A DNA stretch of 34,715 nt from Candidatus Hydrogenedentota bacterium (GTDB lineage: Bacteria > Hydrogenedentota > Hydrogenedentia > Hydrogenedentales > SLHB01). The notes beneath the pieces are model-generated. The model saw nothing but the letters and a program-made list of their open reading frames with translations. It did no database searches and had not been told where the DNA came from. Below, piece after piece: positions 1,318 to 33,354 of the stretch. Positions within the stretch are counted from its first letter, which is position 1; each line of letters starts with the position of its first letter. The position numbers were made by a program, and so were the translations under genes. The stretch is taken from assembly GCA_019695095.1 (NCBI GenBank), contig JAIBAQ010000051.1, positions 1 through 34,715 on the forward strand. The letters run 5' to 3'.

Positions 1318-1350
1318 AAGTTCGCGTGTGTTCGCGAGAAGCCCGGACTA
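1318..1350 (-). repeat. Fragment of the dispersed repeat at the pcm stop codon
   Basis: The sequence GTGTGTTCGCGAGAAG followed by CCCGGACTA matches the end of the long repeat copies. On the minus strand it reads TAGTCCGGG and then the inverted terminal motif. The TAG is the stop codon of pcm (1348-1350). Confidence 0.65.
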
Positions 1351-2055
1351 CTCGGTCAGATCCCAGCCATCCGCTCCGATTAGGGGAACAAAAACGCATC
1401 CGGTGCTATATTCCTGGCGAAAGGTCTGGCCGATCTTCGTTATGCAGAGCAACTCCTGCGATTCCCGCCCCCCGACTGGACAGATTAACCGCCCACCTTC
1501 CCGCAACTGATTTCGCAGCGCGGCGGGTATTCGCGGCCCCGCAGCCGTGACGATAATCACATCGTATGGGGCTGACTCCTGCCATCCCAACGTGCCGTCA
1601 CCCACTTGAACTTCCACATTGTTAAATCCCAGCGTTTGCAGCAGACCTGCGGAACGCGATGCCAACTCCGGCACCCGTTCAATGCTGACGACTCGCCGGG
1701 CCAGCCGCGCGAGCACGGCGCATTGGTAACCCGAGCCCGTGCCGATTTCCAGAGCGGTATCATCGGGCTTGACGTGCGCCAACTGCGTCATCAGAGCGAC
1801 CATGAACGGCTGGGAGATGGTTTGGCCGTGACCAATTTCGAGCGGACGGTCATCGTATGCGTGAGACTTCAGGTCATCCGGCACAAAGCACTCGCGTGGA
1901 ATACTCCCCATCGCCTCCAGCACACGCGGCTCCACGATTCCTCTGCGCTTGAGCTGCGTGTCGATCATGCGCGAACGGTCTTCGGCGTAGGGATCTCCCG
2001 CTTCGATGAGTCCCTCCTTTCCAAACCAGCGCCTGATAAACTTCTGGCGCAACAT
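1348..2055 (-). CDS. pcm: Protein-L-isoaspartate O-methyltransferase
   Basis: A 235-aa SAM-dependent enzyme that methylates isoaspartyl residues in aged proteins to start their repair. Family marks seen: GQTISQP at residues 77-83, SAM-binding motif I EIGTGSGYQ at 103-111, GDGT at 152-155 and a VTAA motif after the third strand. It is slightly longer than the E. coli enzyme because of an N-terminal extension of about 25 residues. The start is ATG 2055 with AAGGTGA about 8 nt upstream. The gap to yggT upstream is only 6 nt, so the two are co-transcribed. Its TAG stop lies inside a fragment of the dispersed repeat. Confidence 0.95.
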   Translation of the reverse strand: MLRQKFIRRWFGKEGLIEAGDPYAEDRSRMIDTQLKRRGIVEPRVLEAMGSIPRECFVPDDLKSHAYDDRPLEIGHGQTISQPFMVALMTQLAHVKPDDTALEIGTGSGYQCAVLARLARRVVSIERVPELASRSAGLLQTLGFNNVEVQVGDGTLGWQESAPYDVIIVTAAGPRIPAALRNQLREGGRLICPVGGRESQELLCITKIGQTFRQEYSTGCVFVPLIGADGWDLTE

Positions 2056-2979: not shown

Positions 2980-3004
2980 TCCGCGCTGGTTTGTGAGACA
3001 TCCG
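2980..3004. repeat. Fragment of the dispersed repeat upstream of thpR
   Basis: GGTTTGTGAGACATCCGGACTA resembles the repeat terminus (GTGTTCGCGAGAAAT followed by CCGGACTA). It lies between the divergent thpR and TerB-like genes. Confidence 0.45.
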
Positions 3005-3078
3005 GACTATGATGACACTTCCTTTCTGGAAGTCAATCGGAAACACGTGTTAGCATTCAAGAAAATGAAGGGACTGTC

Positions 3079-3528: not shown

Positions 3529-3630
3529 TGGACACGCCAACTTACGATCGAGCATGGCGATTCGCCTGCCTCATTGTCACGTCCGACGGTCTTAGATGTG
3601 AAATCTCAGACTTGAGAATCTAATCGGGCC

Positions 3631-3830
3631 TATTCCCGGATTTCTCACGAACACACTTTGCCTTCTCTCGCAACCAGTGCGTTTGCGGGACTCACGGCAA
3701 GAAATTGGGCAGTTCTCCGAAAACAGTGTGTGTTCGCGAGAAATCCTCATGGCATAGCATCAAAGTCGCGCACGTGAGCAATTTGCGTCGGCGCACTATA
3801 GCGCCGATGCAAATTGCGGACTATTCCCGA
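3631..3830 (+). repeat. Dispersed intergenic repeat, copy 2 (full length)
   Basis: The core runs 3638-3746 with terminal inverted repeats: GGATTTCTCACGAACACACT at 3638-3657, and its near-complement ending AGAAATCC at 3746. After a linker comes a 17-bp hairpin: GCAATTTGCGTCGGCGC at 3778-3794 and its near-complement at 3801-3817. It ends GCGGACTATTCCCG. It sits between two convergent genes and supplies the TAG stop (3821-3823) and the last two codons of the glycosidase-like gene. Copy 3 at 16038-16236 matches in the same orientation, with the same 109-bp core length. Confidence 0.85.
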
Positions 3831-5341
3831 ATCTCCGCCCAGACCATCTTGGCCTCGCCGGAACCACCGCTCACCGCCACGGCGTTGCTTCCATCTTTGA
3901 GCGCACTCAACTCCGATTCAAATCGAATTGCCCTGGCTACTCCCGGAAAATCGGCCAAGTCCTCAACGATTCCTGCCAACGAGCATGCGGCACCGTTCAC
4001 GGACACCTTGAGTGTCTTCTCATCTACCCCCTCGGCCTTATCAAATCCGATTATCACTGCCGCTTTGCCGGAGGGAGGTTTTGGACCCGCATAGATAGTG
4101 ATTACCGGGTTATCCGCCAACGCAGCGGGCAACTGTGCTCCGTTGGAGACGCCTGCGGGGACCGTATCGTGATAGGTGCTGACAAAGCGCCGCTCTTTCC
4201 CAACCAGCGTTTTAAGCGCTATACCTTCTTCCAGCAAGGACCGGTAGGCCTCCACACCGCCATGCATGGGGGCCGGGTCCATGTAGTTGAACAAGTAAAT
4301 TGCGTCCGCGCCGCGCATCAATTCCATGGAGGCGAAACCCCGCGCCGACGACAAGGTATTCTCCGTCTGCTTGGCGCCCGGATATGCAGCAATGAGTATT
4401 TCTCCTCCAGGCGCGAGCGTTATCTTCTTAGCGCTATCGCCCAGACGCGCGCGCCACTCCTCGACGGGTATGTCGAAATCGATGCTTGCCCAAAATGGTG
4501 TCGGAACCAGCACGTCGACCAAGTCTTCCTTAACCCAAGTCACGCCATCCATGCCAAGTCCGTACGCCGCGTCGGGGACCGCGGGCACACGCGCGCCAAT
4601 TTGAATCGGATGACCTCGTTTCTGCGACCAATCCACCGACAGCGCCCGCACATCGCGCATAAACTGAGTGAGGATGTCCCGTCCTTTGGCCTCTTCGCCG
4701 GGCTTGAAGTGATAGCCAAACCGCATCCAATCCAGTTCAATACCGTCGGGATCATATCGCTCGAACAGTTCCTTCACGTACACCATTGCGTGTTCGCGCA
4801 CTTCTGGAATCCCGTAATTCAGCGCGCGATCCTGCCACGCGCCGGTACTGCCGGGCACGCGCCAGTAGTCCGGGTGCTTCACCCAGAACGTGCTGTGCAT
4901 GAAGTTTTTCGGGTTGTTGACGTCGTGCACATCGTTCATGCGCATCGTCAGCCACGGCGAGATGCCCTTCTCACGGCAACGTGCAATCCATACCGCGTAG
5001 GGGTCCAATCCCCGCTCATGAAGGAGCCGCGCGTTATCCACCCATTTCCGGCAGAATTCCGGTTCATCGGGAACCACCTGGTCACCGACTTCCCAAATGG
5101 CGTCGCGGGCGGCACTTTCATGGCTGGCCCGCATCGCATTGGGATTCAGGAAAAGATGCGTTACGGCCGTGCCCGCGTACTGATCGACAAACGCGTGGAG
5201 CCCGTCCAGCGTCATGTCGCCTGCATTGCGCGAACCAAAGAAATGGCTATTGTCCTCGTTGATGATGAACGGCGTCTTGTCCGCGCCGACTCCCAGCAAC
5301 GGAGTGGATATGGCCAGACACAAGACTACGCACGAAACCAT
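3821..5341 (-). CDS. Secreted glycoside-hydrolase-like TIM-barrel protein
   Basis: A 506-aa protein with an N-terminal signal peptide (MVSCVVLCLAISTPLLGVGA, residues 1-20) and a glycosidase-like barrel over about residues 25-390. The strand-end motif DGIELDWMRFGY (199-210, with E202 and D204 as candidate acidic residues) and the pattern ISPWLTMRMNDVH resemble bacterial GH10-like/GHL families of TIM-barrel hydrolases. The last 100 or so residues look like a beta-sandwich accessory domain. The start is ATG 5341 with AAAGGGGGG upstream. Substrate unknown; it probably acts in the periplasm or outside the cell on polysaccharide. Its last two codons and stop fall in the dispersed repeat. Confidence 0.72.
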   Translation of the reverse strand: MVSCVVLCLAISTPLLGVGADKTPFIINEDNSHFFGSRNAGDMTLDGLHAFVDQYAGTAVTHLFLNPNAMRASHESAARDAIWEVGDQVVPDEPEFCRKWVDNARLLHERGLDPYAVWIARCREKGISPWLTMRMNDVHDVNNPKNFMHSTFWVKHPDYWRVPGSTGAWQDRALNYGIPEVREHAMVYVKELFERYDPDGIELDWMRFGYHFKPGEEAKGRDILTQFMRDVRALSVDWSQKRGHPIQIGARVPAVPDAAYGLGMDGVTWVKEDLVDVLVPTPFWASIDFDIPVEEWRARLGDSAKKITLAPGGEILIAAYPGAKQTENTLSSARGFASMELMRGADAIYLFNYMDPAPMHGGVEAYRSLLEEGIALKTLVGKERRFVSTYHDTVPAGVSNGAQLPAALADNPVITIYAGPKPPSGKAAVIIGFDKAEGVDEKTLKVSVNGAACSLAGIVEDLADFPGVARAIRFESELSALKDGSNAVAVSGGSGEAKMVWAEIRE

Positions 5342-5390
5342 TGGCCCCCCTTTCCGGAGATGGCGGATTCCTGCGCCTCTTCTCCGGCGC

Positions 5391-5420
5391 TCAATTGCGC
5401 CCGCGCAAAACGCGGACTAG
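5391..5420. repeat. Variant of the repeat's hairpin module
   Basis: The stretch CGCTCAATTGCGCCCGCGC followed by AAAACGCGGACTAG resembles the hairpin module and GCGGACTA end of the long repeat copies. The CTA at 5417-5419 is the stop codon (TAG) of the minus-strand small secreted protein gene. Confidence 0.5.
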
Positions 5421-5929
5421 TCCCTGGTCAGTTCACCCGGGGCGCCGTCCCACGTGGCGCCTTGACCAAAGCGATACCGATACGTCTCGCGGCCGGAGAC
5501 ATCCGTTTGGGTATTTGCCGAGGCTGCGGCTGCCTCGGTACGGTTCGACTTTCGCTCACCTTCGTAGACTCGATATGTATATTGAATCAAGCCGATGAAT
5601 CCGCGTTCGGTCGCCGAACTGCGCGACGTCGGAAACGCGTCCAGCGGATGGTATTCCTCGTACACTTTCACCTTCTTATAGTACTTGCCGCGCAGTTGGC
5701 CTTCTCCCTCGAAAACGACCTCTCCATGCCGCCCCGCCATATTCATGCGCTTCAGCTCGGACTTACCAATCCCGTCCAGGCGTTCCATGACCTTATCGGT
5801 GCCCGAGACGTAGCCCTCCGGCTTCTCACCGATGCCAAAGTCATATTTCACTTTCTCGATGACGCTTCCGCCCGACGAGGCGCACGAGCAAACTGCCAGA
5901 CAAACCAAAAGTGCCCAAAGGGGTTTCAC
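5417..5929 (-). CDS. Small secreted protein, possible lipoprotein, unknown function
   Basis: A 170-aa protein with a hydrophobic leader (MKPLWALLVCLAVCSCASSG). The Cys at residue 16 in VCSC is a possible, non-ideal lipidation site. The mature part is rich in charged residues and Tyr (EVVFEGEGQLRGKYYKKVKVYEEYHP; quoted here only as its pattern of alternating strands), suggesting a beta-rich fold. No known family is recognised. It lies 75 bp upstream of the glycosidase-like gene in the same direction, so the two could be co-transcribed. Its TAG stop lies in a repeat-derived GGACTAG. Confidence 0.65.
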   Translation of the reverse strand: MKPLWALLVCLAVCSCASSGGSVIEKVKYDFGIGEKPEGYVSGTDKVMERLDGIGKSELKRMNMAGRHGEVVFEGEGQLRGKYYKKVKVYEEYHPLDAFPTSRSSATERGFIGLIQYTYRVYEGERKSNRTEAAAASANTQTDVSGRETYRYRFGQGATWDGAPGELTRD

Positions 5930-13245: not shown

Positions 13246-14153
13246 AGCAGCCGCAATGCCTGCTCCACGTGCGCCTCGGTAAACGAGCTACCCGTCACCG
13301 GCAACCAGTGAATACGATCGTCGGCCCGGAACCACGTCAACTGCCGCTTGGCGAATCGTCGCGTCTGCTGCTTGGTGGTCTCTATCGCTTCGGCCAACGT
13401 CTGTTTACCGTCTATATACGCTGCCATCTCCCGAAATCCTACCGATCGCAGACGTTCAACCTCTGAGCGGTATCCGCGTTCCAGGAGCGCCCGCACTTCC
13501 TCCACAAACCCCGCGGCCACCATTGCGTCGACACGCTCGTTGATTCGCCGGTAGAGCTCCTCGCGCGGAAAATCCAGTGCGACCAACACCGCAGAATAGG
13601 CGTGTGTTCGCTCACGGTGCTCGCGATGAAGCCGAGACATGGGCTGCCCCGTCAGCCTGTACACCTCCAGGGCCCGCACGATCCGCCGCAGATCGCCTGG
13701 AAGTATTATCGCGGCATACTCCGGGTCCACCGATTGCAGTTGTTCGTAGAGCGGCGCTCCCGACTCGGCCTCCCGATGCAACTCTTCTCGAATCGTATCG
13801 TCTTTCGGAGGTCCATCGAAAAGGCCGTCAATCAACGCATTGACATACAAGCCGGACCCACCGGCCACGACGGCAACCTTCCCACGCGCATTCAGCGTAT
13901 CGACCACCATCCGCGCCTGCCGCTGGAATTCGCCCGCAGAGAATTCGCAATCCGGTTCGAGCACTCCCACGAAATGGTGCTTCACCGCAGCAAGCTGCTC
14001 GGCGGTGGGGGCCGCTGTCCCGATTTCCATTCCGCGATACACCTGCATCGAATCGGCGGAGATAATCTCGGTGTTGAGGCGCCGGGCAACTTCAATCGCC
14101 AACGCCGTCTTGCCCGACCCGGTAGGTCCCACGACTGCCAGAATGGAAGTCAC
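13218..14153 (-). CDS. miaA: tRNA dimethylallyltransferase
   Basis: A 311-aa enzyme that adds a dimethylallyl group to A37 of tRNAs reading codons that begin with U. P-loop GPTGSGKT at residues 9-16, the substrate motif ADSMQVYRGMEIGTAAP at about 34-50, GGSGLYVNALIDGL and the C-terminal KRQLTWFR are all typical. The frame extends upstream to 14444, but the family start fits GTG 14153, which overlaps the mutL TGA (GTGA). The upstream extension is shadow sequence of mutL. It is co-transcribed with mutL; this pair is also linked in E. coli. Confidence 0.95.
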   Translation of the reverse strand: MTSILAVVGPTGSGKTALAIEVARRLNTEIISADSMQVYRGMEIGTAAPTAEQLAAVKHHFVGVLEPDCEFSAGEFQRQARMVVDTLNARGKVAVVAGGSGLYVNALIDGLFDGPPKDDTIREELHREAESGAPLYEQLQSVDPEYAAIILPGDLRRIVRALEVYRLTGQPMSRLHREHRERTHAYSAVLVALDFPREELYRRINERVDAMVAAGFVEEVRALLERGYRSEVERLRSVGFREMAAYIDGKQTLAEAIETTKQQTRRFAKRQLTWFRADDRIHWLPVTGSSFTEAHVEQALRLLQDESASAR

Positions 14154-16033
14154 TGCCGTCTCCGGAAGCTCTTCTCCATCTGCATTTGGGTCAATTCGGT
14201 GATGATTGGCCTTCCGTGGGGACACGTGTAGGGGGGGCGCATCCGCCGGAACCCTTCCAGCAGTTCTTTGCGTTCCTGCGGAGACAGCCGATCGCCTGCT
14301 TTCACGGAGCCTCGGCAGGCCTCCACGGTCAAGCGGAGCGCGTCCGAGATAAAGTCCTCGCGCGAGAACAAGTCCCCCTGCGCCAACTGGTCCAGCACGC
14401 GGAAGATTGCATCGGCAATCTTGGACTCCTGATACAGGTGACAAACCGCCGTCACCTGGAATGTCGTGCCGCCAAACGGCTCGATTTCGATCCCGATACG
14501 CGAGAAAAGCGGCAGATTCGTTTCGAGCAGCCGCGCATGCGACGGGGGAAGCTCCACCAGAATGGGCACGATCAACTGCTGCGCCTGGTAATCGTGGTCG
14601 GCAAGATCAGCGCGCAGACTGTCGTAGGTTAACCGCTCATGCAACGCGTGCTGGTCGATGATCAACAACCGGTCTTCTTCCGGCACCAGCAAGTACGTGT
14701 CGAAGAGTTGCATCGGAGCATCGTCCATGTGGCCGATAGGACGGTAGACGGCCATTGGCGCAACCCGATCCACGTGGTCCGACGTTGCCGGACCCGAACC
14801 CGCGAATTCGGTTTGCACCGGTTCTGTGTAGGCTTCAAGCGGATTCGCGGTCTCCACAAAACGTGCGGCTAGGATGGGCGGAGTCTCAAACATGGGCGGT
14901 ATAGAAGCACTTGCCGCTTCCGTACCGGCGAGCCTTGGGCTTGTCTCGCTTATGAGTGTCCGCATGACCGGTTCTTCGCGCACTGGAAACGACGGCGCGG
15001 GAGTCACCAGCGTCTCGCGTCCAACTTGGATGCGTTCCATACGGCGGCGGACTACGTCACGAATGGCTTCGCGCACCACGCGCTCCTCGCGGAAACGCAC
15101 TTCGCGCTTCGCGGGGTGGATGTTCACATCCACGTAGCGCGGATGCGACTCGACCATGACGATGCCCACCGGATACCGTCCAATCGTCAGCAGTCCGCGG
15201 TAGCCGTCTTCCAAGCCATACTGCAGCGAACGATTCACGATAGGACGCCGATTCAAGAAGAAGAACTGATGCGAACGCTGCGACCGCGTGAGTGCGGGCG
15301 TTCCCACCAACCCTCGGAATCGAAGTCCAGCCTGCTCTTCATCCAAGTCGATCAAATCGTTCAGGAAGTTGAGTCCCCAGATAAGGGCGACCCGTTCGCG
15401 CAGCGTCGCGCGCTCCGGGATGTCGAGCAGCGTCTTTTCGTTGTGCAACAGATGAAATCCGACGCCCACTTCCGCGAGCGCGTGCCGTTGCACGATATCG
15501 ATGCACAGACTCAGTTCGGTGGTGATCCCCTTCAGGAATTTCGCGCGTACGGGTGTGTTGAAGTAGAGCCGGTTCACGCTCACTCGCGTTCCCACGGGCG
15601 CGGCCACGTGGTCTACGTCGCGAAGGATTCCCCCTTCCACGCGCACCCGCGTCGCGGACTCATCGCGTTCGCGGCGCGTGACCATCTCGAATCGTGAAAC
15701 GGCCGCGATACTCGCCAGGGCCTCTCCACGGAACCCAAGCGTCAGAATGTTGTCCAGGTCCTCGGCTTTGCGGATCTTGCTTGTCGCGTGCCGTTCAATC
15801 GCCAGCAACGCATCCTGCTCGGACATTCCATGACCGTTATCGATGACCTCGATCGTCCTGCGCCCCGCAGCCACAAGCCGCACCTGAATCCGCGTCGCGC
15901 GGGCGTCCAGCGCGTTCTCAACAAGCTCTTTGACAACAGACGCGGGGCGTTCGACCACCTCGCCGGCTGCAATCTTGTTGGCCACGTTCTCGGGCAGTAC
16001 ACGGACTGCGGGTATGCTTGTTTTCGCGCTCAT
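14150..16033 (-). CDS. mutL: DNA mismatch repair protein MutL
   Basis: A 627-aa GHKL ATPase that links mismatch recognition by MutS to strand incision. N-terminal motifs: KELVENALDA (residues 35-44, catalytic E36), DNGHGM (65-70) and TLGFRGEAL (98-106). The C-terminal domain carries the endonuclease motifs DQHALHERLTYD, ACRGS and CPHGRP, so it is the nicking type found in bacteria without MutH. In the first motif the usual final Glu is Asp. The ATG at 16033 is preferred over the GTG at 16036; the site just upstream is a weak TTAGGTG. A repeat copy ends 4-5 nt before it. Followed by miaA. Confidence 0.95.
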   Translation of the reverse strand: MSAKTSIPAVRVLPENVANKIAAGEVVERPASVVKELVENALDARATRIQVRLVAAGRRTIEVIDNGHGMSEQDALLAIERHATSKIRKAEDLDNILTLGFRGEALASIAAVSRFEMVTRRERDESATRVRVEGGILRDVDHVAAPVGTRVSVNRLYFNTPVRAKFLKGITTELSLCIDIVQRHALAEVGVGFHLLHNEKTLLDIPERATLRERVALIWGLNFLNDLIDLDEEQAGLRFRGLVGTPALTRSQRSHQFFFLNRRPIVNRSLQYGLEDGYRGLLTIGRYPVGIVMVESHPRYVDVNIHPAKREVRFREERVVREAIRDVVRRRMERIQVGRETLVTPAPSFPVREEPVMRTLISETSPRLAGTEAASASIPPMFETPPILAARFVETANPLEAYTEPVQTEFAGSGPATSDHVDRVAPMAVYRPIGHMDDAPMQLFDTYLLVPEEDRLLIIDQHALHERLTYDSLRADLADHDYQAQQLIVPILVELPPSHARLLETNLPLFSRIGIEIEPFGGTTFQVTAVCHLYQESKIADAIFRVLDQLAQGDLFSREDFISDALRLTVEACRGSVKAGDRLSPQERKELLEGFRRMRPPYTCPHGRPIITELTQMQMEKSFRRRQ

Positions 16034-16037
16034 CACC

Positions 16038-16236
16038 TAACCCGGATTTCTCACGAACACACTTGAACCTCTCTCCTAACCAGAGTGTTCGCGAGACTTG
16101 CGGCCAAAATCAAAGCGACTCTCCGAAGACAGAGTGTGTTCGCGAGAAATCCTCATGGCATAACCTCAACGTCTTGCACGTGAGCAATTTGCGTCGGCGC
16201 TCAATCGCGCCTGTGCAAATTGCGGACTAATTCCCG
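16038..16236 (+). repeat. Dispersed intergenic repeat, copy 3 (full length)
   Basis: The core at 16044-16152 has the same length (109 bp) and terminal inverted repeats (GGATTTCTCACGAACACACT; AGTGTGTTCGCGAGAAATCC) as copy 2. The linker shares CTCATGGCATA. The hairpin at 16184-16223 (GCAATTTGCGTCGGCGC with its imperfect complement) and the end GCGGACTAATTCCCG are also shared. It occupies nearly the whole 5' leader of mutL, ending 4-5 nt from its start codon, so any mutL promoter lies in or beyond the repeat. Confidence 0.85.
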
Positions 16237-16384: not shown

Positions 16385-16822
16385 CTAGATTTCGAACCGC
16401 ACGTCTCCGTAGATGGTCGAGCAGGCGGGAAGTCTGCGATTCCAGCTTAGACCCTGGTAATAGTCGATACAGACGTTGGTGGTCGTGATTTCGATCCCCT
16501 CATTTACTACGATGAGTTCGTTGTTGACGGCTTCACCGCAGAAGAGGAACTCGTCGACGATGTCAAACACACCCCGTACCATGTACGTACCCGGCGCAAA
16601 CCCTTTGATATCCTCAGACTGCCCGGATACCAGCACTGACGTCAGGTCATTTGGCCCCCATGACAGAGCGCCCTGATTCGCCACATTCACTTCTTTCAAG
16701 TCATACGACGTGAAGTTGTTGATACAGAACTGATACTGAAGCAGATTGCATCCTGCAAATACCGTAGCTACCGCCACGAGTATAACGGCAGCGAGGATTC
16801 CCCAACTGCGTGACCGTCTCAT
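16385..16822 (-). CDS. Tandem paralogous lipoprotein LP1
   Basis: A 145-aa predicted lipoprotein with signal segment and lipobox ending in FAGC, followed by the family start NLLQYQFCINN. Family blocks: SYDLKEVN; SWGPNDL; EDIKGF; GTYMVRGVFDI; ITTTNVCIDY; and the end IYGDVRFEI. Four cysteines follow the lipidated one (QFC, LFC, NVC, PAC). The start is ATG 16822 with AAAGGAG upstream; the frame extends further but without a better site. It is the most divergent in its loops (an inserted SWNRRL before the last Cys). Function unknown; it is probably anchored at a membrane facing the periplasm or cell surface. Confidence 0.85.
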   Translation of the reverse strand: MRRSRSWGILAAVILVAVATVFAGCNLLQYQFCINNFTSYDLKEVNVANQGALSWGPNDLTSVLVSGQSEDIKGFAPGTYMVRGVFDIVDEFLFCGEAVNNELIVVNEGIEITTTNVCIDYYQGLSWNRRLPACSTIYGDVRFEI

Positions 16823-16930
16823 GCCTGATCTCCTTTGATTCGTGCGGGCTTGCTTGACTGGTCTCCTTCCAGTATCGCACCGGAGCGCAGCAAGCTTCGT
16901 CGCTTCCATCAAGAAAAACCAACCCTCGGC

Positions 16931-16968
16931 AAGAAAAAAGCAGGCTCGTCGAGGTTTAACAAGCCTGC
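16931..16968 (-). terminator. Rho-independent terminator after lipoprotein LP2
   Basis: On the minus strand a GCAGGCT/AGCCTGC stem (16962-16968 and 16940-16946) is followed by TTTTTTCTT. It lies 24 bp past the LP2 stop and upstream of LP1, so LP1 needs its own promoter or read-through. Confidence 0.8.
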
Positions 16969-16991
16969 CCCCTATACCAATTACTTCAAGA

Positions 16992-17438
16992 CTAGATTAC
17001 GAATCGGACATCACCGTAAATCAAGGTGCACCCGCCAATAACAACGGCCTTACCCTGCAACAGAGTATCCTCTCTGTAATCGATGCAGACGTTCGTCGTC
17101 GTGATATCGATACCTTCGTTCACGACGATCAATTCATCGTTGATTACATCGTCGCAGAATTCGCTGGAATCAGCGACATCGAAAACTCCGCGAACCATGT
17201 ACGTTCCCGCCGCGAAACCTTTGATGTCCTCCGAGCCGCCAGGCGCAAGAACAGCGCTCAGATCGTTCGCCCCCCAGGAGTCAGCGCCCTGGTTTACAAT
17301 GTTCACGTCCGTGAGGTCAAACGAAGTAAGGTTGTTGATGCAGAACTGGTACTGAAGCAGATTGCACCCTGCCAATACCGTTGCGACCAACACAACGCAC
17401 ACACCCATTGCCAATCCAAACCGACGCACCACTCGCAT
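16992..17438 (-). CDS. Tandem paralogous lipoprotein LP2
   Basis: A 148-aa predicted lipoprotein: MRVVRRFGLAMG leader, lipobox LAGC, then the family pattern NLLQYQFCINNLTSFDL, SWGANDLS, PGGSEDIKGF, YMVRGVFDV, ITTTNVCIDY and IYGDVRFVI. All four mature-domain cysteines are present (QFC, EFC, NVC, GGC). The start is ATG 17438 with AAGGAGA 8 nt upstream; the upstream extension of the frame to 17510 is not needed. Its leader peptide is nearly identical to that of LP3, marking these two as a recent duplication. A TATAAT sits at about 17462, very close to the start. Function unknown. Confidence 0.86.
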   Translation of the reverse strand: MRVVRRFGLAMGVCVVLVATVLAGCNLLQYQFCINNLTSFDLTDVNIVNQGADSWGANDLSAVLAPGGSEDIKGFAAGTYMVRGVFDVADSSEFCDDVINDELIVVNEGIDITTTNVCIDYREDTLLQGKAVVIGGCTLIYGDVRFVI

Positions 17439-17593
17439 TACATGTCTCCTTCTTCCGCTTCTCATTATACGGGTATACAACGCCCCACTATTCGAGACTG
17501 AGCATACCACGTCATGACATACACTACAATCCGCCCCACCCTTAGACGCTCATGTGCGTCAACCCATGCATACTACCTGGTGTGGGGCGACTG

Positions 17594-17610
17594 ACCGGTC
17601 TTCAACCGGT
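17594..17610 (-). terminator. Weak hairpin after lipoprotein LP3
   Basis: ACCGGT-CTTCA-ACCGGT forms a 6-bp stem 14 bp past the LP3 stop. There is no U-tract, so it is at best a weak terminator or mRNA 3'-end structure. Confidence 0.25.
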
Positions 17611-17623
17611 TATTCGCTCGACG

Positions 17624-18067
17624 CTAGATTTCAAACCTGGCTGCGCCATAGATCGACGTGCAGACATCGGCCTTATCTTTGGACACAATGCCTTCGATCT
17701 CACGGTAATCGATACAGATATTCGTCGTCGTGATTTCAAGGCCTTCGTTCACGATGATCAACTCACCATTGATGACTTCGTGGCAGAGATTAGGCTCGCC
17801 CGCGATGTCAAACACGCCGCGAACCATGTACATGCCAGGCGAGAACCCTTTGATATCTTCCGAGCCGCCCGGCTCAATAACACCGGTCAGATCGTTTGAG
17901 CCCCAAGAGTCAGCGCTTTGAGTTGTAATGTTCACTTCCTTGAGGTCATACGGCGTCAAGTTGGTGACGCAGAACTGGTACTGAAGTAAGTTACACCCTG
18001 CCAATACCGTTACAACCAGCACAACGCACATACCCGCCAGCAATCCAAACCGACGCACTACTCGCAT
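17624..18067 (-). CDS. Tandem paralogous lipoprotein LP3
   Basis: A 147-aa predicted lipoprotein. The lipidated Cys is residue 25 (LAGC), and the other four cysteines are at 33 (QFC), 95 (NLC), 118 (NIC) and 136 (DVC). Conserved blocks are as in its paralogues: YDLKEVNI, SWGSNDL, PGGSEDIKGFSPG, YMVRGVFDI, EITTTNICIDY, IYGAARFEI. The start is ATG 18067 with AAGGAG upstream. The pattern of short strands with SWGxNDL and PGGS turns suggests a small beta-sandwich. Function unknown; the intergenic gap of 164 bp to LP4 suggests separate transcription. Confidence 0.86.
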   Translation of the reverse strand: MRVVRRFGLLAGMCVVLVVTVLAGCNLLQYQFCVTNLTPYDLKEVNITTQSADSWGSNDLTGVIEPGGSEDIKGFSPGMYMVRGVFDIAGEPNLCHEVINGELIIVNEGLEITTTNICIDYREIEGIVSKDKADVCTSIYGAARFEI

Positions 18068-18231
18068 TGCATTTCTCCTTTTTCATCTGCTCTACGTATT
18101 GACTCACCATTCTGCACAAAGCGACTGGGAATACTCAGCCTTCCCCTATCGCTCATCGTCCGGGCGCACTCAATCTCGGCAAGCAACTCACGACGGAGTG
18201 CGCCAGCTCAAACGACTTTCAGACTGATGAC

Positions 18232-18666
18232 TCAAATCTCGAACCGCGCGGCGCCGTAGATATCTACACAAACAGTGCTCTTTTTCTCTGGAACTTCTTC
18301 GTCGTAGTCGATGCAGATATTCGTCGTCGTGATCTCCAGACCGTCGTTCACAACGATGAACTCGTTGTTATAGACGTCTTCGCAGACATCCTCCTCATTC
18401 ACGATGTCAAATACGCCTCGCACCATATACATTCCCGGGGAAAAACCCTTGATGTCTACCGAACCGCCCGGCAGGAGCGTGCCAGAGAGATCGTTCGAAC
18501 CCCACGACGGCGCGCCTTGAGCCGCAATGTTCACTTCCTTGAGGTCGAATGACGTAAGGTTGTTGATGCAGAACTGATACTGTAGCAAGTTACATCCGAC
18601 CAATAGCGGCGTAACCGCCCCCATTGCCAGAATCGCCACCAACGCATAACGTGTGAACCTTTTCAT
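18232..18666 (-). CDS. Tandem paralogous lipoprotein LP4
   Basis: A 144-aa predicted lipoprotein: MKRFTRYALVAILAMG leader, lipobox LVGC, NLLQYQFCINNLTSFDL, SWGSNDLSG, PGGSVDIKGFSPG, YMVRGVFDI, ITTTNICIDY, IYGAARFEI. The four mature cysteines (QFC, DVC, NIC, TVC) are kept. The start is ATG 18666 with AAGGAG 7 nt upstream. A strong promoter lies about 90-115 bp upstream. Its C-terminal block is identical to that of LP3 but its leader differs, hinting at exchange between copies. Confidence 0.86.
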   Translation of the reverse strand: MKRFTRYALVAILAMGAVTPLLVGCNLLQYQFCINNLTSFDLKEVNIAAQGAPSWGSNDLSGTLLPGGSVDIKGFSPGMYMVRGVFDIVNEEDVCEDVYNNEFIVVNDGLEITTTNICIDYDEEVPEKKSTVCVDIYGAARFEI

Positions 18667-18753
18667 GGCACTGCTCCTTATGGTCTACGCCACATTCCTC
18701 TCCCGGATACGCTCAGTTGGATAAACGAACACAGATTCCCTACAGCACCTCAG

Positions 18754-18782
18754 ATCTTAGGGAGATCGGCTCAACTTGTCAA
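18754..18782 (-). promoter_or_regulatory. Sigma-70-like promoter of LP4
   Basis: On the minus strand TTGACA (18777-18782), a 17-nt spacer and TAAGAT (18754-18759) lie about 88 bp upstream of LP4. This is a consensus -35 with a good -10. Confidence 0.75.
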
Positions 18783-18836
18783 TTGCTATTCACTCGTTCC
18801 AAACAAGGATTGACTCAACCACGCGGACAGCAGATC

Positions 18837-18887
18837 AGCCCCTCGCATATGACGGAACCCCCCGCAACCAATCGGCTGCGAGGGGCT
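18837..18887 (-). terminator. Terminator-like hairpin after lipoprotein LP5
   Basis: A perfect 11-bp stem, AGCCCCTCGCA/TGCGAGGGGCT, encloses a 29-nt loop, 25 bp past the LP5 stop. There is no U-tract on the minus strand, so the function is uncertain. Confidence 0.4.
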
Positions 18888-18912
18888 CTACCAAAATATC
18901 TGCAATCAGGAC

Positions 18913-19356
18913 TTAAATTTCAAAACGGACTGCGCCATAAATCTCAACGCAATCGCCCGGAGCCTTGACGCCGTTCTGCACCACATACTGCTCGTTGTAG
19001 TCGATACAGACGTTTGTCGTCGTGATGTCGATGTTCGTATTTGTTACGATGTACTCGTCATTGATGACAGGTTCACATACCTGACTGTCGGCCACGTCGA
19101 ACACGCCGCGAACCATGTAGTCACCAGCCGAAAAACCCTTGATGTCTTGCGTCTGTCCAGGTCCAACAATTCCGGTCAAATCGTTCGAACCCCACGATCC
19201 CGCTCCCAGCGCCACAACATTCACCTCAATAAGATCGTAGGAACTCTGATTGTTCACACAAATCTGATAAGTGAGCAGATTGCAGCCCACCATAACCGGA
19301 GCCACAATGCCCACCGCAATGGACATCACAATCGCTGCCGTTTTCCACGTCCTCAT
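18913..19356 (-). CDS. Tandem paralogous lipoprotein LP5
   Basis: A 147-aa predicted lipoprotein: MRTWKTAAIVMSIAVG leader, lipobox MVGC, then NLLTYQICVNNQSSYDL, SWGSNDLTG, PGQTQDIKGFSAG, YMVRGVFDV, DITTTNVCIDY, IYGAVRFEI. All four mature-domain cysteines are present (QIC, QVC, NVC, GDC). It departs from the family in the second block (PGQTQ instead of PGGSE) and has a longer loop before the last Cys. The start is ATG 19356 with AGGAGG 5 nt upstream, and a TATAAT promoter lies about 70 bp upstream. Function unknown. Confidence 0.86.
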   Translation of the reverse strand: MRTWKTAAIVMSIAVGIVAPVMVGCNLLTYQICVNNQSSYDLIEVNVVALGAGSWGSNDLTGIVGPGQTQDIKGFSAGDYMVRGVFDVADSQVCEPVINDEYIVTNTNIDITTTNVCIDYNEQYVVQNGVKAPGDCVEIYGAVRFEI

Positions 19357-19423
19357 AGCCGCCTCCTATTCCTTGCTCTATCGCGTTCTCTAGACTCGAT
19401 ATACCCGTTCCAGCATCGGCACT

Positions 19424-19454
19424 ATTATACTCTCTCGGAGAACACACATTTCAA
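19424..19454 (-). promoter_or_regulatory. Sigma-70-like promoter of LP5
   Basis: On the minus strand a perfect TATAAT (19424-19429) is preceded by TTGAAA (19449-19454) with a long 19-nt spacer. It points to LP5, about 70 bp away. Confidence 0.55.
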
Positions 19455-19493
19455 GATGTCTCCGTCTTTTGGCCGTTTCGACCAATAGAACGT

Positions 19494-19532
19494 AAAAAAA
19501 CCGTCCCTTTTCGCTTACGCTCGAAGGGACGG
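19494..19532 (-). terminator. Rho-independent terminator after lipoprotein LP6
   Basis: On the minus strand a CCGTCCCTT/AAGGGACGG stem (9 bp) is followed by seven Ts (19494-19500). It lies about 30 bp past the LP6 stop and upstream of the LP5 promoter, isolating LP6 as its own transcription unit. Confidence 0.9.
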
Positions 19533-19563
19533 CCAAAGTACTCAGTCTCAGTGACGGGATCCG

Positions 19564-19998
19564 TTAGATGATGTAACGAACGTCGCCGTAAATGAAGGTG
19601 CATTCTTCTTCGGTGTCAACATCTTCGGAATAGTCGATCGCGACATTCGTCGTCGTAACTTCGATACCCGTGTTGTATACAAGGTATTCGTCGTTGTAGA
19701 TCGGTCCGCAGATCTCATCGTCTTCGGCATCGGCTACATCGAATACGCCACGAACCATGTATTCACCAGCCGCGAAACCCTTGATGTCTTCCGAACCACC
19801 AGGCGCAAGAATTGCCGACAGGTCGTTCGAACCCCACGATTGAGCGCCGTCCGCCGTGATGTTGACTTCCATCAGGTCGTACGAGGTCAGGTTGTTGATC
19901 TCGAACTGATACTGAAGAAGATTACAACCAACCATCACGGGCAATGCCACACTTACCAACACGGCCATCACTACAGCGAAGCGTTTCCAATTCGACAT
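19564..19998 (-). CDS. Tandem paralogous lipoprotein LP6 (lacks two cysteines)
   Basis: A 144-aa predicted lipoprotein: MSNWKRFAVVMAVLVS leader, lipobox MVGC, then NLLQYQFEINNLTSYDL, SWGSNDLSA, PGGSEDIKGFAAG, YMVRGVFDVAD, EVTTTNVAIDY, IYGDVRYII. Two of the four family cysteines are replaced (QFC to QFE, NVC to NVA) while the other two remain (EIC, EEC). The start is ATG 19998 with AAGGAGG upstream. It has its own extended -10 promoter and a strong terminator. It is richer in acidic residues than the others. Function unknown. Confidence 0.86.
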   Translation of the reverse strand: MSNWKRFAVVMAVLVSVALPVMVGCNLLQYQFEINNLTSYDLMEVNITADGAQSWGSNDLSAILAPGGSEDIKGFAAGEYMVRGVFDVADAEDDEICGPIYNDEYLVYNTGIEVTTTNVAIDYSEDVDTEEECTFIYGDVRYII

Positions 19999-20439
19999 GT
20001 GCGTTTTCCTCCTTTTGCTGCACCCTACAGACGTTACCCTATAGGCATCGTCCATGTTTCCTCAAAACTATAGCACACCCTTCAGCGTTCAACAAGTCTA
20101 CCACTTTTCACACTTTGCCGCTAGCTCATTCTCCGTCTGCACTCCCCAATTTCGGGCTGGAATCCTCCCCTTCCCAAAATCGGTACCGTACACTCTACAC
20201 TCGAACCACTACGGCGTTACCGATTGACCTTTTCCTACACAACAGGTTGTGCTTAGACGGCTCCACTATACCAGCAGTCCGCTCTAGCCGTCAAGTGAAA
20301 ACATCGGAAACCCACGTAACCCACCATCTGCTCTCTACATAGGCACCTTTGCGGCACATTGTCATCGTTCGGCTCGGCACTGCCCCCTTCTCTTCCGGCA
20401 GTGGCCCGACCCGCAGCAGGGGCATCTCCAATCGACGAA
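19999..20439. other. Intergenic region upstream of LP6
   Basis: No gene is supported. The right part of the LP6 leader and promoter lies at 20000-20095. A GC-rich hairpin, CACTGCC/GGCAGTG (20378-20384 and 20397-20403), lies about 40 bp past the M14 gene stop and could serve as its terminator, though it lacks a U-tract. The stretch 20100-20370 shows nothing recognisable and is poorer in G+C than the genes. Confidence 0.5.
20067..20095 (-). promoter_or_regulatory. Extended -10 sigma-70-like promoter of LP6
   Basis: On the minus strand TTGTTG (20090-20095), a 17-nt spacer and TATAGT (20067-20072), with TG one base upstream of the -10 (TGCTATAGT). It lies about 70 bp upstream of the LP6 start. 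Confidence 0.7.
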
Positions 20440-30255: not shown

Positions 30256-30343
30256 CAAATCCACCATACTTTCCTTCTCCGCCGACGGACTTTGCGCCGG
30301 CGGTATTTGTTGTATGGGCTCGTTTGCCGCAGGAGACCCCCGC
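30256..30343 (+). promoter_or_regulatory. Leader block A before the first sugar-binding protein
   Basis: It contains AATCCACCATACTTTCC, a GC-rich hairpin near CCGCCGACGGACTTTGCGCC, and GCCGCAGGAGACCCCCGC just before the TTG start. Parts of the block recur before the second binding protein (ACCACCATACT at about 31867) and, almost entire, at 33696-33797. Confidence 0.65.
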
Positions 30344-31783
30344 TTGCGTAGAACCTATTTCATTTGGGCTTTAGGTGTGCTTGTTTGTGCCGCCGTGGCC
30401 ATGCTGCTGCGCCCCTCGGAAGCCGGGTCGCCGGAAGAGCGCCAAGCCATCGAAGAAGGCCGCACGATCATTGTGTATTGGGATCGGCACTCCGGTCACG
30501 AGCACGCCATGCGCGCCGAGCTCATCCGGGAGTACAACAACACCCAAGGCAAAACCGACGGTGTTTACGTGCGCGCGTTGCCCATTGGCTTCTTCGCCCT
30601 CATGGAAAAGATGCTCACTTCGATTGCCGGGGGGTCGCCGCCCGACGTCTGCAGTATCGACACCAGCATTCTGATGCAGCTTGCAACCCAGGGGTGCTTC
30701 ACGCCCTTGGGCGAATGGATGAAGACCGTCCCCGCCCTTCAAGAGGACCGGTTTCTGCGCCACACGTGGGAGATGGTCGCCTACGAAGGCTATGACGCCG
30801 CTCATCAGAACTGGGTCGACGACGTGTGGGGAATCCCCTCGACAACGGACTCTTATTGCCTTCTATGGAACAAGGACATCTTTCGCAGGGCTGGCCTTGA
30901 TCCCAATACGCCGCCGAAAACGACACAGGAACTCGAGGAGTTTGCCGCCAAGCTCACCATTCGCAACGGCGCGGAGGTCACTCAGATTGGGTTTATCCCA
31001 TGGTTTCCGTGGGACATTTCCCTGATGTGGGGCGGCATGTTCGGCGGCTCCTATTACGACCCGGAAACCGGACTTGCCACCTGCGGTTCCGACCCGGCCG
31101 TCATCGCGTCGCTCGCTTGGCAAGCCAAGTTCAGCATAGACCCAAACTCGGACAACAACGCGCCATTCGCGGTCGACGCGACCAAGTTTCAGTCGTTCGA
31201 GAAAATGGGCGCGTATCAAAGCGCCAACAACCCCTTCTACGCCGGGAAGGTCGCTATGATCGTGGAGGGTGAATGGCAAGCCACCTTCATCCCCCAATAC
31301 GCAAAGCACCTCGATTGGGGCGTCGCGCCGATTCCGCAACCCGAAGGCGCGCCCCCACGCGCATACGGTCCCGCGTGCGTCTGCGACTCCGTCCCCGCGA
31401 GCGCCAAGCACAAGGAAGAAGCCTTCAAGTTCCTGAAGTGGTTCTACTCGCCGCGCCCTGGTGGCGGTTTCTCTCCCATCAGCGACTACAACTTCGCGAT
31501 TCACAACATCCCATGCATCCGCGAAGAAGCCATGCAGGACCGGTTCATGAAGGACCCCAAATTCAGCGTCTTCGTCAACGAACTCCTCACCAAGCCCGAA
31601 ATCGTCTCTCAACCCAACCTTCCGCAATCGCAGTTCTATCTCGACGAAATCGAACGCGGCCGCGAATTTGTCACCATGCACGAAAAGACCCCCGAGCAGT
31701 CGGCTAAAGACACCGAAACCCGCACAAACGAAGTGCTCGAAGACACCTACCGGCAAATGAAGGTGTTGAAGAAGGCAGATTAG
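30344..31783 (+). CDS. ABC transporter sugar-binding protein (family 1), membrane-anchored, copy 1
   Basis: A 479-aa extracellular solute-binding protein. Residues 5-22 form a signal or anchor helix (FIWALGVLVCAAVAMLL) without a lipobox. Then IIVYWDRHSGHEHAMRAELI and the SBP family 1 pattern: SPPDVCSIDTSILMQLATQG, VWGIPSTTDSYCLLWNKDIF, YAGKVAMIVEGEWQ and AFKFLKWFYSP. The start is TTG 30344 with AGGAG 8 nt upstream, which matches the position of the GTG start of copy 2; the ATG at 30314 lies in leader block A. The permease at the window end is its probable partner. Sugar specificity is not known. Confidence 0.85.
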   Translation: MRRTYFIWALGVLVCAAVAMLLRPSEAGSPEERQAIEEGRTIIVYWDRHSGHEHAMRAELIREYNNTQGKTDGVYVRALPIGFFALMEKMLTSIAGGSPPDVCSIDTSILMQLATQGCFTPLGEWMKTVPALQEDRFLRHTWEMVAYEGYDAAHQNWVDDVWGIPSTTDSYCLLWNKDIFRRAGLDPNTPPKTTQELEEFAAKLTIRNGAEVTQIGFIPWFPWDISLMWGGMFGGSYYDPETGLATCGSDPAVIASLAWQAKFSIDPNSDNNAPFAVDATKFQSFEKMGAYQSANNPFYAGKVAMIVEGEWQATFIPQYAKHLDWGVAPIPQPEGAPPRAYGPACVCDSVPASAKHKEEAFKFLKWFYSPRPGGGFSPISDYNFAIHNIPCIREEAMQDRFMKDPKFSVFVNELLTKPEIVSQPNLPQSQFYLDEIERGREFVTMHEKTPEQSAKDTETRTNEVLEDTYRQMKVLKKAD

Positions 31784-31824
31784 CCCACAAAGCAATCCCA
31801 TAGACTAAATTGGGCTCCTTGGAA

Positions 31825-31849
31825 CCAGTGGGCTCCTTTCGCTCACTGG
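31825..31849 (+). terminator. Hairpin between the two binding-protein genes
   Basis: CCAGTGGGC/GCTCACTGG, a 9-bp stem with one G-U pair and a 7-nt loop, lies 42 bp past the first binding-protein stop. With no U-tract it is more likely an mRNA processing or stability element that separates the expression of the two paralogues than a full terminator. Confidence 0.4.
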
Positions 31850-31917
31850 AATCTGTCCTCCCAGAACCACCATACTCATTGTCCGCACAAGTATTGCCGT
31901 TCCGGGGGGACTTTCAC

Positions 31918-33354
31918 GTGCGAAAGACCTATGCCATTTGGGTGCTGGGTGCCATGCTCTGTCTGGGCATCATCGCTATTCTGCGCCCATCTGAAGCCGG
32001 CTCCCCGGAGGAACGCGCCGCACTCAATCAAGGCCGCACGGTAATCGTGTACTGGGATCGTCACTACGGACACGAGCACGCCATGCGCGCGAAGCTTATC
32101 GAGGAGTACAACACCACCCAAGGCATCGCCGACGGCGTCTATGTGCGCGCGCTCCCCATCGGCAACTCCGCGATTATGGAGAAACTGCTCACCGCCGTAG
32201 CCAGCGGTTCTCCGCCAGATGCGTGCAGCATCGACTCAGGCATTCTCATGCAGTTGGCCACCCAGGGGTGTTTCACGTCGCTCAGCGACTACGCAGACTC
32301 CATTCCCGCGCTGAAACAGGACCGCTTTCTTCCACACACCTGGGCCATGGTCTCTTTTGAGGGCTACAACTCCAATCGCCGCGCCTGGGTCGATGGCGTC
32401 TGGGGAATCCCCACCACCACCGAGGCCTACTGCCTGCTGTGGAACAAGGACGCCTTTCGCCGCGCTGGACTCGACCCCGAGCGTCCTCCAAGAACCATCC
32501 GCGAACTGGAGGAATACGCCGCCAGACTCACTATCCGCGAGGGTTCCGAGACTAAGCAGGTCGGTTTCGTGCCGTGGTTCCCGTGGGACATGACCCTCAT
32601 GTGGGGCGGCCTGTTTGGCGGCACGTGGTACGACTCCAAGACCGGATATGCGACCTGCGCGAGTGACTCCAGTATCGTGGCGTCGCTCGCGTGGCAAGGC
32701 ACATTCAGCGAGACCCCCAACTCCGCCACCAATGCCCCCTACGCCCTCGATTCCAGCAAGTTCCAGTCCTTCGAGAAGATGGGCGCGTACCAAAGCGCCA
32801 ACAACCCCTTCTACGCGGGCAAAGTCGCCATGATCATCGAGGGTGAATGGCAAGTCACCTTCATCGAGAAATACGCCAGCCACCTCGATTGGGGCGTCGC
32901 GCCCATTCCTCAACCCGAAGACGCCCCGCCACGCGCCTACGGTCCCGCGTGCATCTGCGACGCCGTGCCCTCAAGCGCCAAACACAAAGACGAAGCCTTC
33001 AAGTTCCTGCGTTGGTTCTACGCGCCACGCTCAGAAACAGCCACATCGCCCTGCAGCGATTTCAACTACACCATCCACAACATCCCCTGCACCCGCGAGG
33101 AGGCCCTGCAAGACCGCTTCATGAAAGACCCCAAATTCAGCGTCTTCGTTAACGAACTCCTCACCAAACCCGAAATCGTCACCCACCCGCTGCTCCCCCA
33201 GCCTCAACTCTTCCTCGACGAAATCGAACGCGCCCGCGAATTCGTCATCCTCCACGAAAAGTCCCCCGAACAAGCCGCCCAGGAAATCGAGACCCGAACC
33301 AACGAAGTGCTCGGCGATACATACAGGCAAATGAAGAAGTTGACGCCAGAATAG
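31918..33354 (+). CDS. ABC transporter sugar-binding protein (family 1), membrane-anchored, copy 2
   Basis: A 478-aa paralogue of the preceding gene. Identity by eye is high along its whole length, including YQSANNPFYAGKVAMI and ELLTKPEIV. It has an anchor helix (YAIWVLGAMLCLGIIAIL) and no lipobox. The start GTG 31918 has GGGGGG 8 nt upstream and aligns with the start of copy 1; the frame opens earlier (31810) but only in the leader. Differences cluster in loops, compatible with different ligands. The stop TAG is followed by TCCGG, the sequence seen at other repeat-linked stops. Confidence 0.85.
   Translation: MRKTYAIWVLGAMLCLGIIAILRPSEAGSPEERAALNQGRTVIVYWDRHYGHEHAMRAKLIEEYNTTQGIADGVYVRALPIGNSAIMEKLLTAVASGSPPDACSIDSGILMQLATQGCFTSLSDYADSIPALKQDRFLPHTWAMVSFEGYNSNRRAWVDGVWGIPTTTEAYCLLWNKDAFRRAGLDPERPPRTIRELEEYAARLTIREGSETKQVGFVPWFPWDMTLMWGGLFGGTWYDSKTGYATCASDSSIVASLAWQGTFSETPNSATNAPYALDSSKFQSFEKMGAYQSANNPFYAGKVAMIIEGEWQVTFIEKYASHLDWGVAPIPQPEDAPPRAYGPACICDAVPSSAKHKDEAFKFLRWFYAPRSETATSPCSDFNYTIHNIPCTREEALQDRFMKDPKFSVFVNELLTKPEIVTHPLLPQPQLFLDEIERAREFVILHEKSPEQAAQEIETRTNEVLGDTYRQMKKLTPE

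Follow-up and report, generated by a model that had tools for sequence, protein, structure and literature searches.

The question raised by this locus is what occupies the gap next to mutL, and why a similar palindromic sequence recurs along the same contig. The window (the whole stretch of DNA analysed, 34,715 nucleotides) is contig C51 of a Hydrogenedentota MAG of 6.77 Mb in 405 contigs (95% complete); judged by the FlgI protein (61-69% identity), its nearest named relatives are Hydrogenedentota MAGs. The initial annotation described a dispersed element that would be either MITE-like and mobilised in trans or a structured RNA module. The first of these readings is favoured here, with a probability of about 0.9: the sequence is most likely a MITE, i.e., a 186-bp non-autonomous DNA transposon without coding capacity, moved in trans by a DDE transposase. 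This reading agrees with 4-bp duplications at the borders, dispersed copies in unrelated flanks, an intergenic location, and absence from relatives, and it adds a clearly delimited MITE family from a little-studied, uncultured phylum.

The index copy (plus strand, 16041-16226) lies directly upstream of the start of mutL (14150-16036, minus strand), runs from CCCGGATTTCTC to GCAAATTGCGGA, and is 95% identical to the consensus. It is comprised of module A, a palindromic left part with the arms GGATTTCTCACGAACACACT and AGTGTGTTCGCGAGAAATC (16041-16151), a linker conserved in full copies (CTCATGGCATAACCTCAACGTCTTGCACGTGA, 16152-16183), and hairpin B at the right end (a 17-bp stem with a 6-nt loop, 16184-16223), which is followed by GGA and then by the target duplication. 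The left duplication, CTAA at 16037-16040, was read directly from the sequence, the general rule for such duplications coming from 30 copies, and the right one (16227-16230) is identical to it. The consensus of 30 aligned copies, with its flanking duplications, reads CTAN, CCCGGATTTCTCACGAACACACTT ... AGTGTGTTCGCGAGAAATCC TCATGGCATAACCTCAACGTCTTGCACGTGA GCAATTTGCGTCGGCGC TCAATC GCGCCGGTGCAAATTGC GGA, CTAN; its borders are sharp and the sequence outside them is random. Terminal inverted repeats are present but imperfect (9 of the first 14 terminal positions), and the ends may also be written as YCCGGATTTCTC and ..GCGGA. No gene was called inside the element, in line with the earlier statement that it holds no open frame.

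A second full-length copy (plus strand, 3635-3820; 86% to the consensus) is flanked by CTAT at 3630-3633 (plus one extra T) and at 3821-3824, and the right duplication contains the in-frame TAG stop (3821-3823, minus strand) of the gene at 3821-5341. The third long copy (minus strand, 178-292) is a short form that consists of module A only: both of its ends are of the left type, and the tail is missing. Its flanks are CTAT (174-177) and ATAG (293-296), i.e., not a direct duplication. That three long copies exist, as the initial annotation had claimed, was confirmed by an identity of 81% over 194 nt between 3635-3828 and 16041-16234, by an inverted match of 183-296 to 16037-16150 (85% over 114 nt), and by consensus alignment scores of 180, 248, and 333, compared with a maximum of 26 in 2000 random stretches of the window. 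The proposed unit of 109-114 bp has to be redrawn, since this core is the left part (module A) only and the unit is the 186 bp seen at 16041-16226 and 3635-3820. Similarly, two copies do share the linker (with CTCATGGCATA) and the 17-bp hairpin, but these are integral to the standard element rather than an optional module, and the unusual copy in the window is the one at 178-292, not those bearing linker and hairpin. Module A as an independent mobile unit was considered and rejected, as there are few short forms and the one in the window has no direct duplication.

The small fragments noted earlier are also real, with scores of 40, 27, and 45 for 1326-1350, 2989-3009, and 5385-5419 (all on the plus strand) against the random maximum of 26, which the second beats by one point; all three end in ..CGGACTA. 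The first is a remnant of a module-A-type end whose final CTA is the TAG stop of the PCMT gene (1348-2055, minus strand), the second a weak remnant of the same type of end (..CATCCGGACTA), and the third a right-end remnant (hairpin B) ending in the CTA that forms the TAG stop of the gene at 5417-5929 (minus strand). Elsewhere in the genome, a 55-bp internally deleted element (C31:12751-12810, locus L125) retains an intact CTAG/CTAG duplication and also ends at a TAG stop.

A search of the whole genome for further copies yielded roughly 150. The 16-nt left end has 170 matches (at most 1 mismatch) and the 20-nt right end 152 (at most 3 mismatches), with 0 in the reversed-pattern control in both cases, and at least 40 full copies are present at 88-95% identity. 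The copies diverge independently (median 7% from the consensus, best pair 96%). No match was detected among 79 relatives, 24 of them from the same family and none from the same genus, so the element is probably specific to this genus or species; the left-end pattern alone occurs in a few of 60 genomes as 1-2 isolated one-mismatch sites. Exact 20-mers of the element gave no hit in named genome and viral contig collections.

The evidence on how the element moves comes mainly from its borders. An earlier suggestion to look for target-site duplications led to a 4-bp YTAN repeat, perfect in the index copy (CTAA/CTAA). In 18 of 30 full copies located in long stretches, the same 4 bases stand to the left and to the right, compared with 8% for mispaired copies. 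The fourth base, which is free (A, C, G, and T are all used), agrees in 80% vs. 23% in mispaired copies (p=6e-11), and flank positions outside the target, C(>T)-T-A-N, carry almost no information. The 4-bp repeat is thus a true target duplication. Such a duplication is a mark of DDE transposition, whereas Y1 transposition gives none, which argues against movement of the IS200/REP type, and a DDE mechanism is inferred from it. Briefly, the transposase would recognise the two ends, which are imperfectly inverted (left YCCGGATTTCTCAC; right, read inwards, TCCGCAATTTGCAC), and make a cut staggered by 4 nt in the target, [C/t]TAN; repair of this cut would then produce the 4-bp direct duplication. 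No paralogous empty site was found within the genome.

The duplication also bears on a REP/BIME-type or IS200/IS605-derived palindrome moved on single-stranded DNA by a Y1 (RAYT-like) transposase, in which the TAG beside the right hairpin would be a REP-like foot tetranucleotide. Such an origin would account for a hairpin that adjoins NTAG, for the intergenic location often at gene 3′ ends, as in REPs, and for the three Y1 transposase genes of the genome. It is nevertheless very improbable, because the CTAN on the two sides mostly share their fourth base and because the ends of the element are absent from all three Y1 loci; a RAYT-mobilised REP/BIME was rejected on these grounds. REPs are associated with Y1/RAYT transposases and are not known to have flanking target duplications. 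The palindromes of E. coli REPs lie close behind stop codons, as here, but the present element is a 186-bp unit with a 4-bp duplication. It was also reported that REP sequences of E. coli located at most 15 nt behind stops can stall ribosomes (PMC12306157).

With regard to the transposase, the MITE reading would have it supplied in trans, and the initial annotation had proposed a search for an autonomous copy with the same ends. None was found in the 405-contig MAG: a scan of 1.2 Mb for widely spaced ends bordered by target duplications gave no matching pair that enclosed a transposase-like ORF, and seven transposase-family searches of the genome gave no transposase with the element's ends. 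PF13546, PF13586, PF13701, and PF13340 had no members in the genome in these searches. There is one complete PF01609/PF05598 gene, which looks IS1182-like and has its own ends (GAGGCTGTCTCACAAT), unlike those of the element, as well as a second, partial PF05598 frame on C367. A suspicious end pair on C88 (18775/21501) was rejected as an autonomous copy, since the two ends belong to separate, ordinary copies, whose right ends are at 18938 and 21334. Short-read MAGs often lack multi-copy IS; the absence of a partner from an assembly of 405 contigs therefore weighs little, and the partner may be unassembled or lost. On C4, at about 6.6 kb (plus strand, L073), lies a 104-bp sequence with a CTAC/CTAC duplication and the ends CCCGCGAATTGC...AACCCGGG, which may represent a further MITE family served by the same transposase.

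IS701 and IS5, which have YTAR-like targets, are possible parents with 4-bp duplications as here. IS701 members make exactly 4-bp duplications and have the ends NNNYACTNY (PMC2266710), compared with YCCGGATTT in the element. An IS701 MITE was rejected because this end consensus differs and PF13546 is absent from the genome, and an IS5 MITE because PF13340 and PF13586 are absent and the one complete PF01609/PF05598 gene looks IS1182-like.

Several bacterial MITEs (RUP, Correia/NEMIS, ERIC, MITEAba12) are likewise non-coding sequences of 100-200 bp with terminal inverted repeats and a short duplication, mostly intergenic, with palindromic transcripts, and moved in trans; MITEAba12 makes a 9-bp duplication (PMC2229807, PMC6382973, PMC10969869). 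Many of the elements listed in that literature have TA at their ends, whereas the target here is CTAN with a 4-bp duplication and the ends are asymmetric. MITEs without a functional partner have been described in Haloquadratum, where SMR-A is similarly about 110 bp long, with inverted repeats, no known transposase, and a strong target preference; in contrast to the present element, the Haloquadratum SMRs leave no target duplication, and their preferred sites are other mobile elements (PMC3119063). The element is probably a new family among the classical MITEs, one whose 4-bp target is CTAN and which is over-represented at TAG stops. A recent review of prokaryotic MITEs, in which the words "stop codon" do not occur, makes no mention of such an excess.

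Where the copies lie was assessed with a codon-usage model written for this analysis, under which 83% of the genome is coding; genome-context statistics cover 2.75 Mb and 23 extra loci, and counts of location, age, and pairing refer to 60 full copies. Nearly all pieces (116 of 118) lie outside genes. Of 58 full copies, 39 have the right end directed towards the 3′ end of a gene. The in-frame stop of a gene that reads into the element falls within the right-hand duplication in 23 of 60 (22 TAG and one TAA, read from the duplications), compared with only 3 copies in which the left end carries a stop. On the strand that leads into the right end the target reads NTAG, and TAG stop codons therefore qualify as targets. 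Since the pre-insertion site is the left flank, CTAN, and the right flank, the in-frame TAG predates the insertion and the gene is not truncated; an insertion there would keep the stop and leave the protein intact. For the PCMT gene, for instance, the match to the Pfam profile extends as far as position 207 of 210, and the gene end is therefore natural. Duplication of CTAN thus makes TAG stops natural, harmless landing sites and offers a simple route for mobile hairpins to gene ends.

Occupied TAG stops number 21 of 694, compared with 18 of 1784 TAGs located 1-300 nt downstream (OR 3.1, p=9e-4). TGA stops, which are not possible targets, provide a control: without any use of element detection, TCCG follows the stop in 37 of 712 TAG, 4 of 487 TAA, and 3 of 750 TGA cases. 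The stop-codon excess is 2-5 fold, a size that depends on our own gene calls and on a sample taken partly from contigs with strong matches. The fraction of copies at stops is 16/30 among the least diverged and 7/30 among the most diverged (p=0.03), and the higher share in young copies favours insertion preference over slow selective retention. In our view, the over-use of stops is mostly due to a preference at insertion, or to filtering at a very early stage, rather than to selection acting later on a regulatory hairpin. The age trend points to insertion, and not subsequent domestication, as the origin of the association. This has a bearing on the way in which REP-like repeats came to adjoin stop codons in other bacteria.

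It is conceivable, although we give it less than even odds, that the association is a mere by-product of the CTAN target, with genes protected by selection and TAG stops simply being harmless CTAN sites; this would oppose the insertion-preference part only and not the MITE reading. It fits a target that carries no information beyond CTAN, and the left-right asymmetry at stops would be expected under it because NTAG always contains TAG. On the other hand, TAGs 1-30 nt downstream of stops should be equally harmless, yet 0 full copies in that orientation lie there and 23 lie at stops, with 362 and 694 sites available, respectively. A stronger and rather doubtful version of insertion preference is that in-frame TAG stops are themselves what the transposase prefers (stop-codon homing), for example if it were coupled to the termination of transcription or translation. 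If true, it would be a genome-wide system that places a 17-bp hairpin directly behind stops with the proteins unharmed.

The location also invites a reading as regulatory or structured RNA (a 3′-UTR hairpin or terminator) that selection retains at gene ends; it may have spread by copying yet be functionally domesticated. The orientation of right ends towards gene 3′ ends, the 23 abutted stops, and the right-hairpin remnants that persist at stops are in its favour, as is the conservation of stems and ends (94%, vs. 83% for the module A loop). The latter fits several source copies under mobility selection as well as host function, and was counted for neither. Both strands of the consensus give a strong fold (about -82 to -84 kcal/mol), as expected of any palindromic MITE. 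In 60 copies, 963 of 1019 cells in hairpin B are paired, compared with the 954.5 that independent columns would give, and two-sided changes number only 6; the stems of module A behave in the same way, with no pairing excess. In addition, no U-run follows the hairpin when it is read from the stop, and the at-stop fraction falls with age instead of rising. The structured-RNA alternative of the initial annotation, for which there was also no Rfam match in the window, is accordingly improbable.

Some other repeats were also observed. A second, larger dispersed family, marked by AACCACGGGTGAACACCGATGAACTCCGATAA and unrelated to the 186-bp element, is found at C54:10956-12113 (L208) and in about 140 other intergenic regions. 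In the window, six tandem paralogues at 16385-20055, about 63-80% identical in DNA, encode a putative lipoprotein of about 150 aa (..GCNLLQYQFCINNLTSYDLKEVNI..), the first of them without a Pfam match. A tandem pair of paralogous genes at 30314-33354 (489 and 514 aa, 70-82% identical in DNA) resembles extracellular solute-binding proteins.
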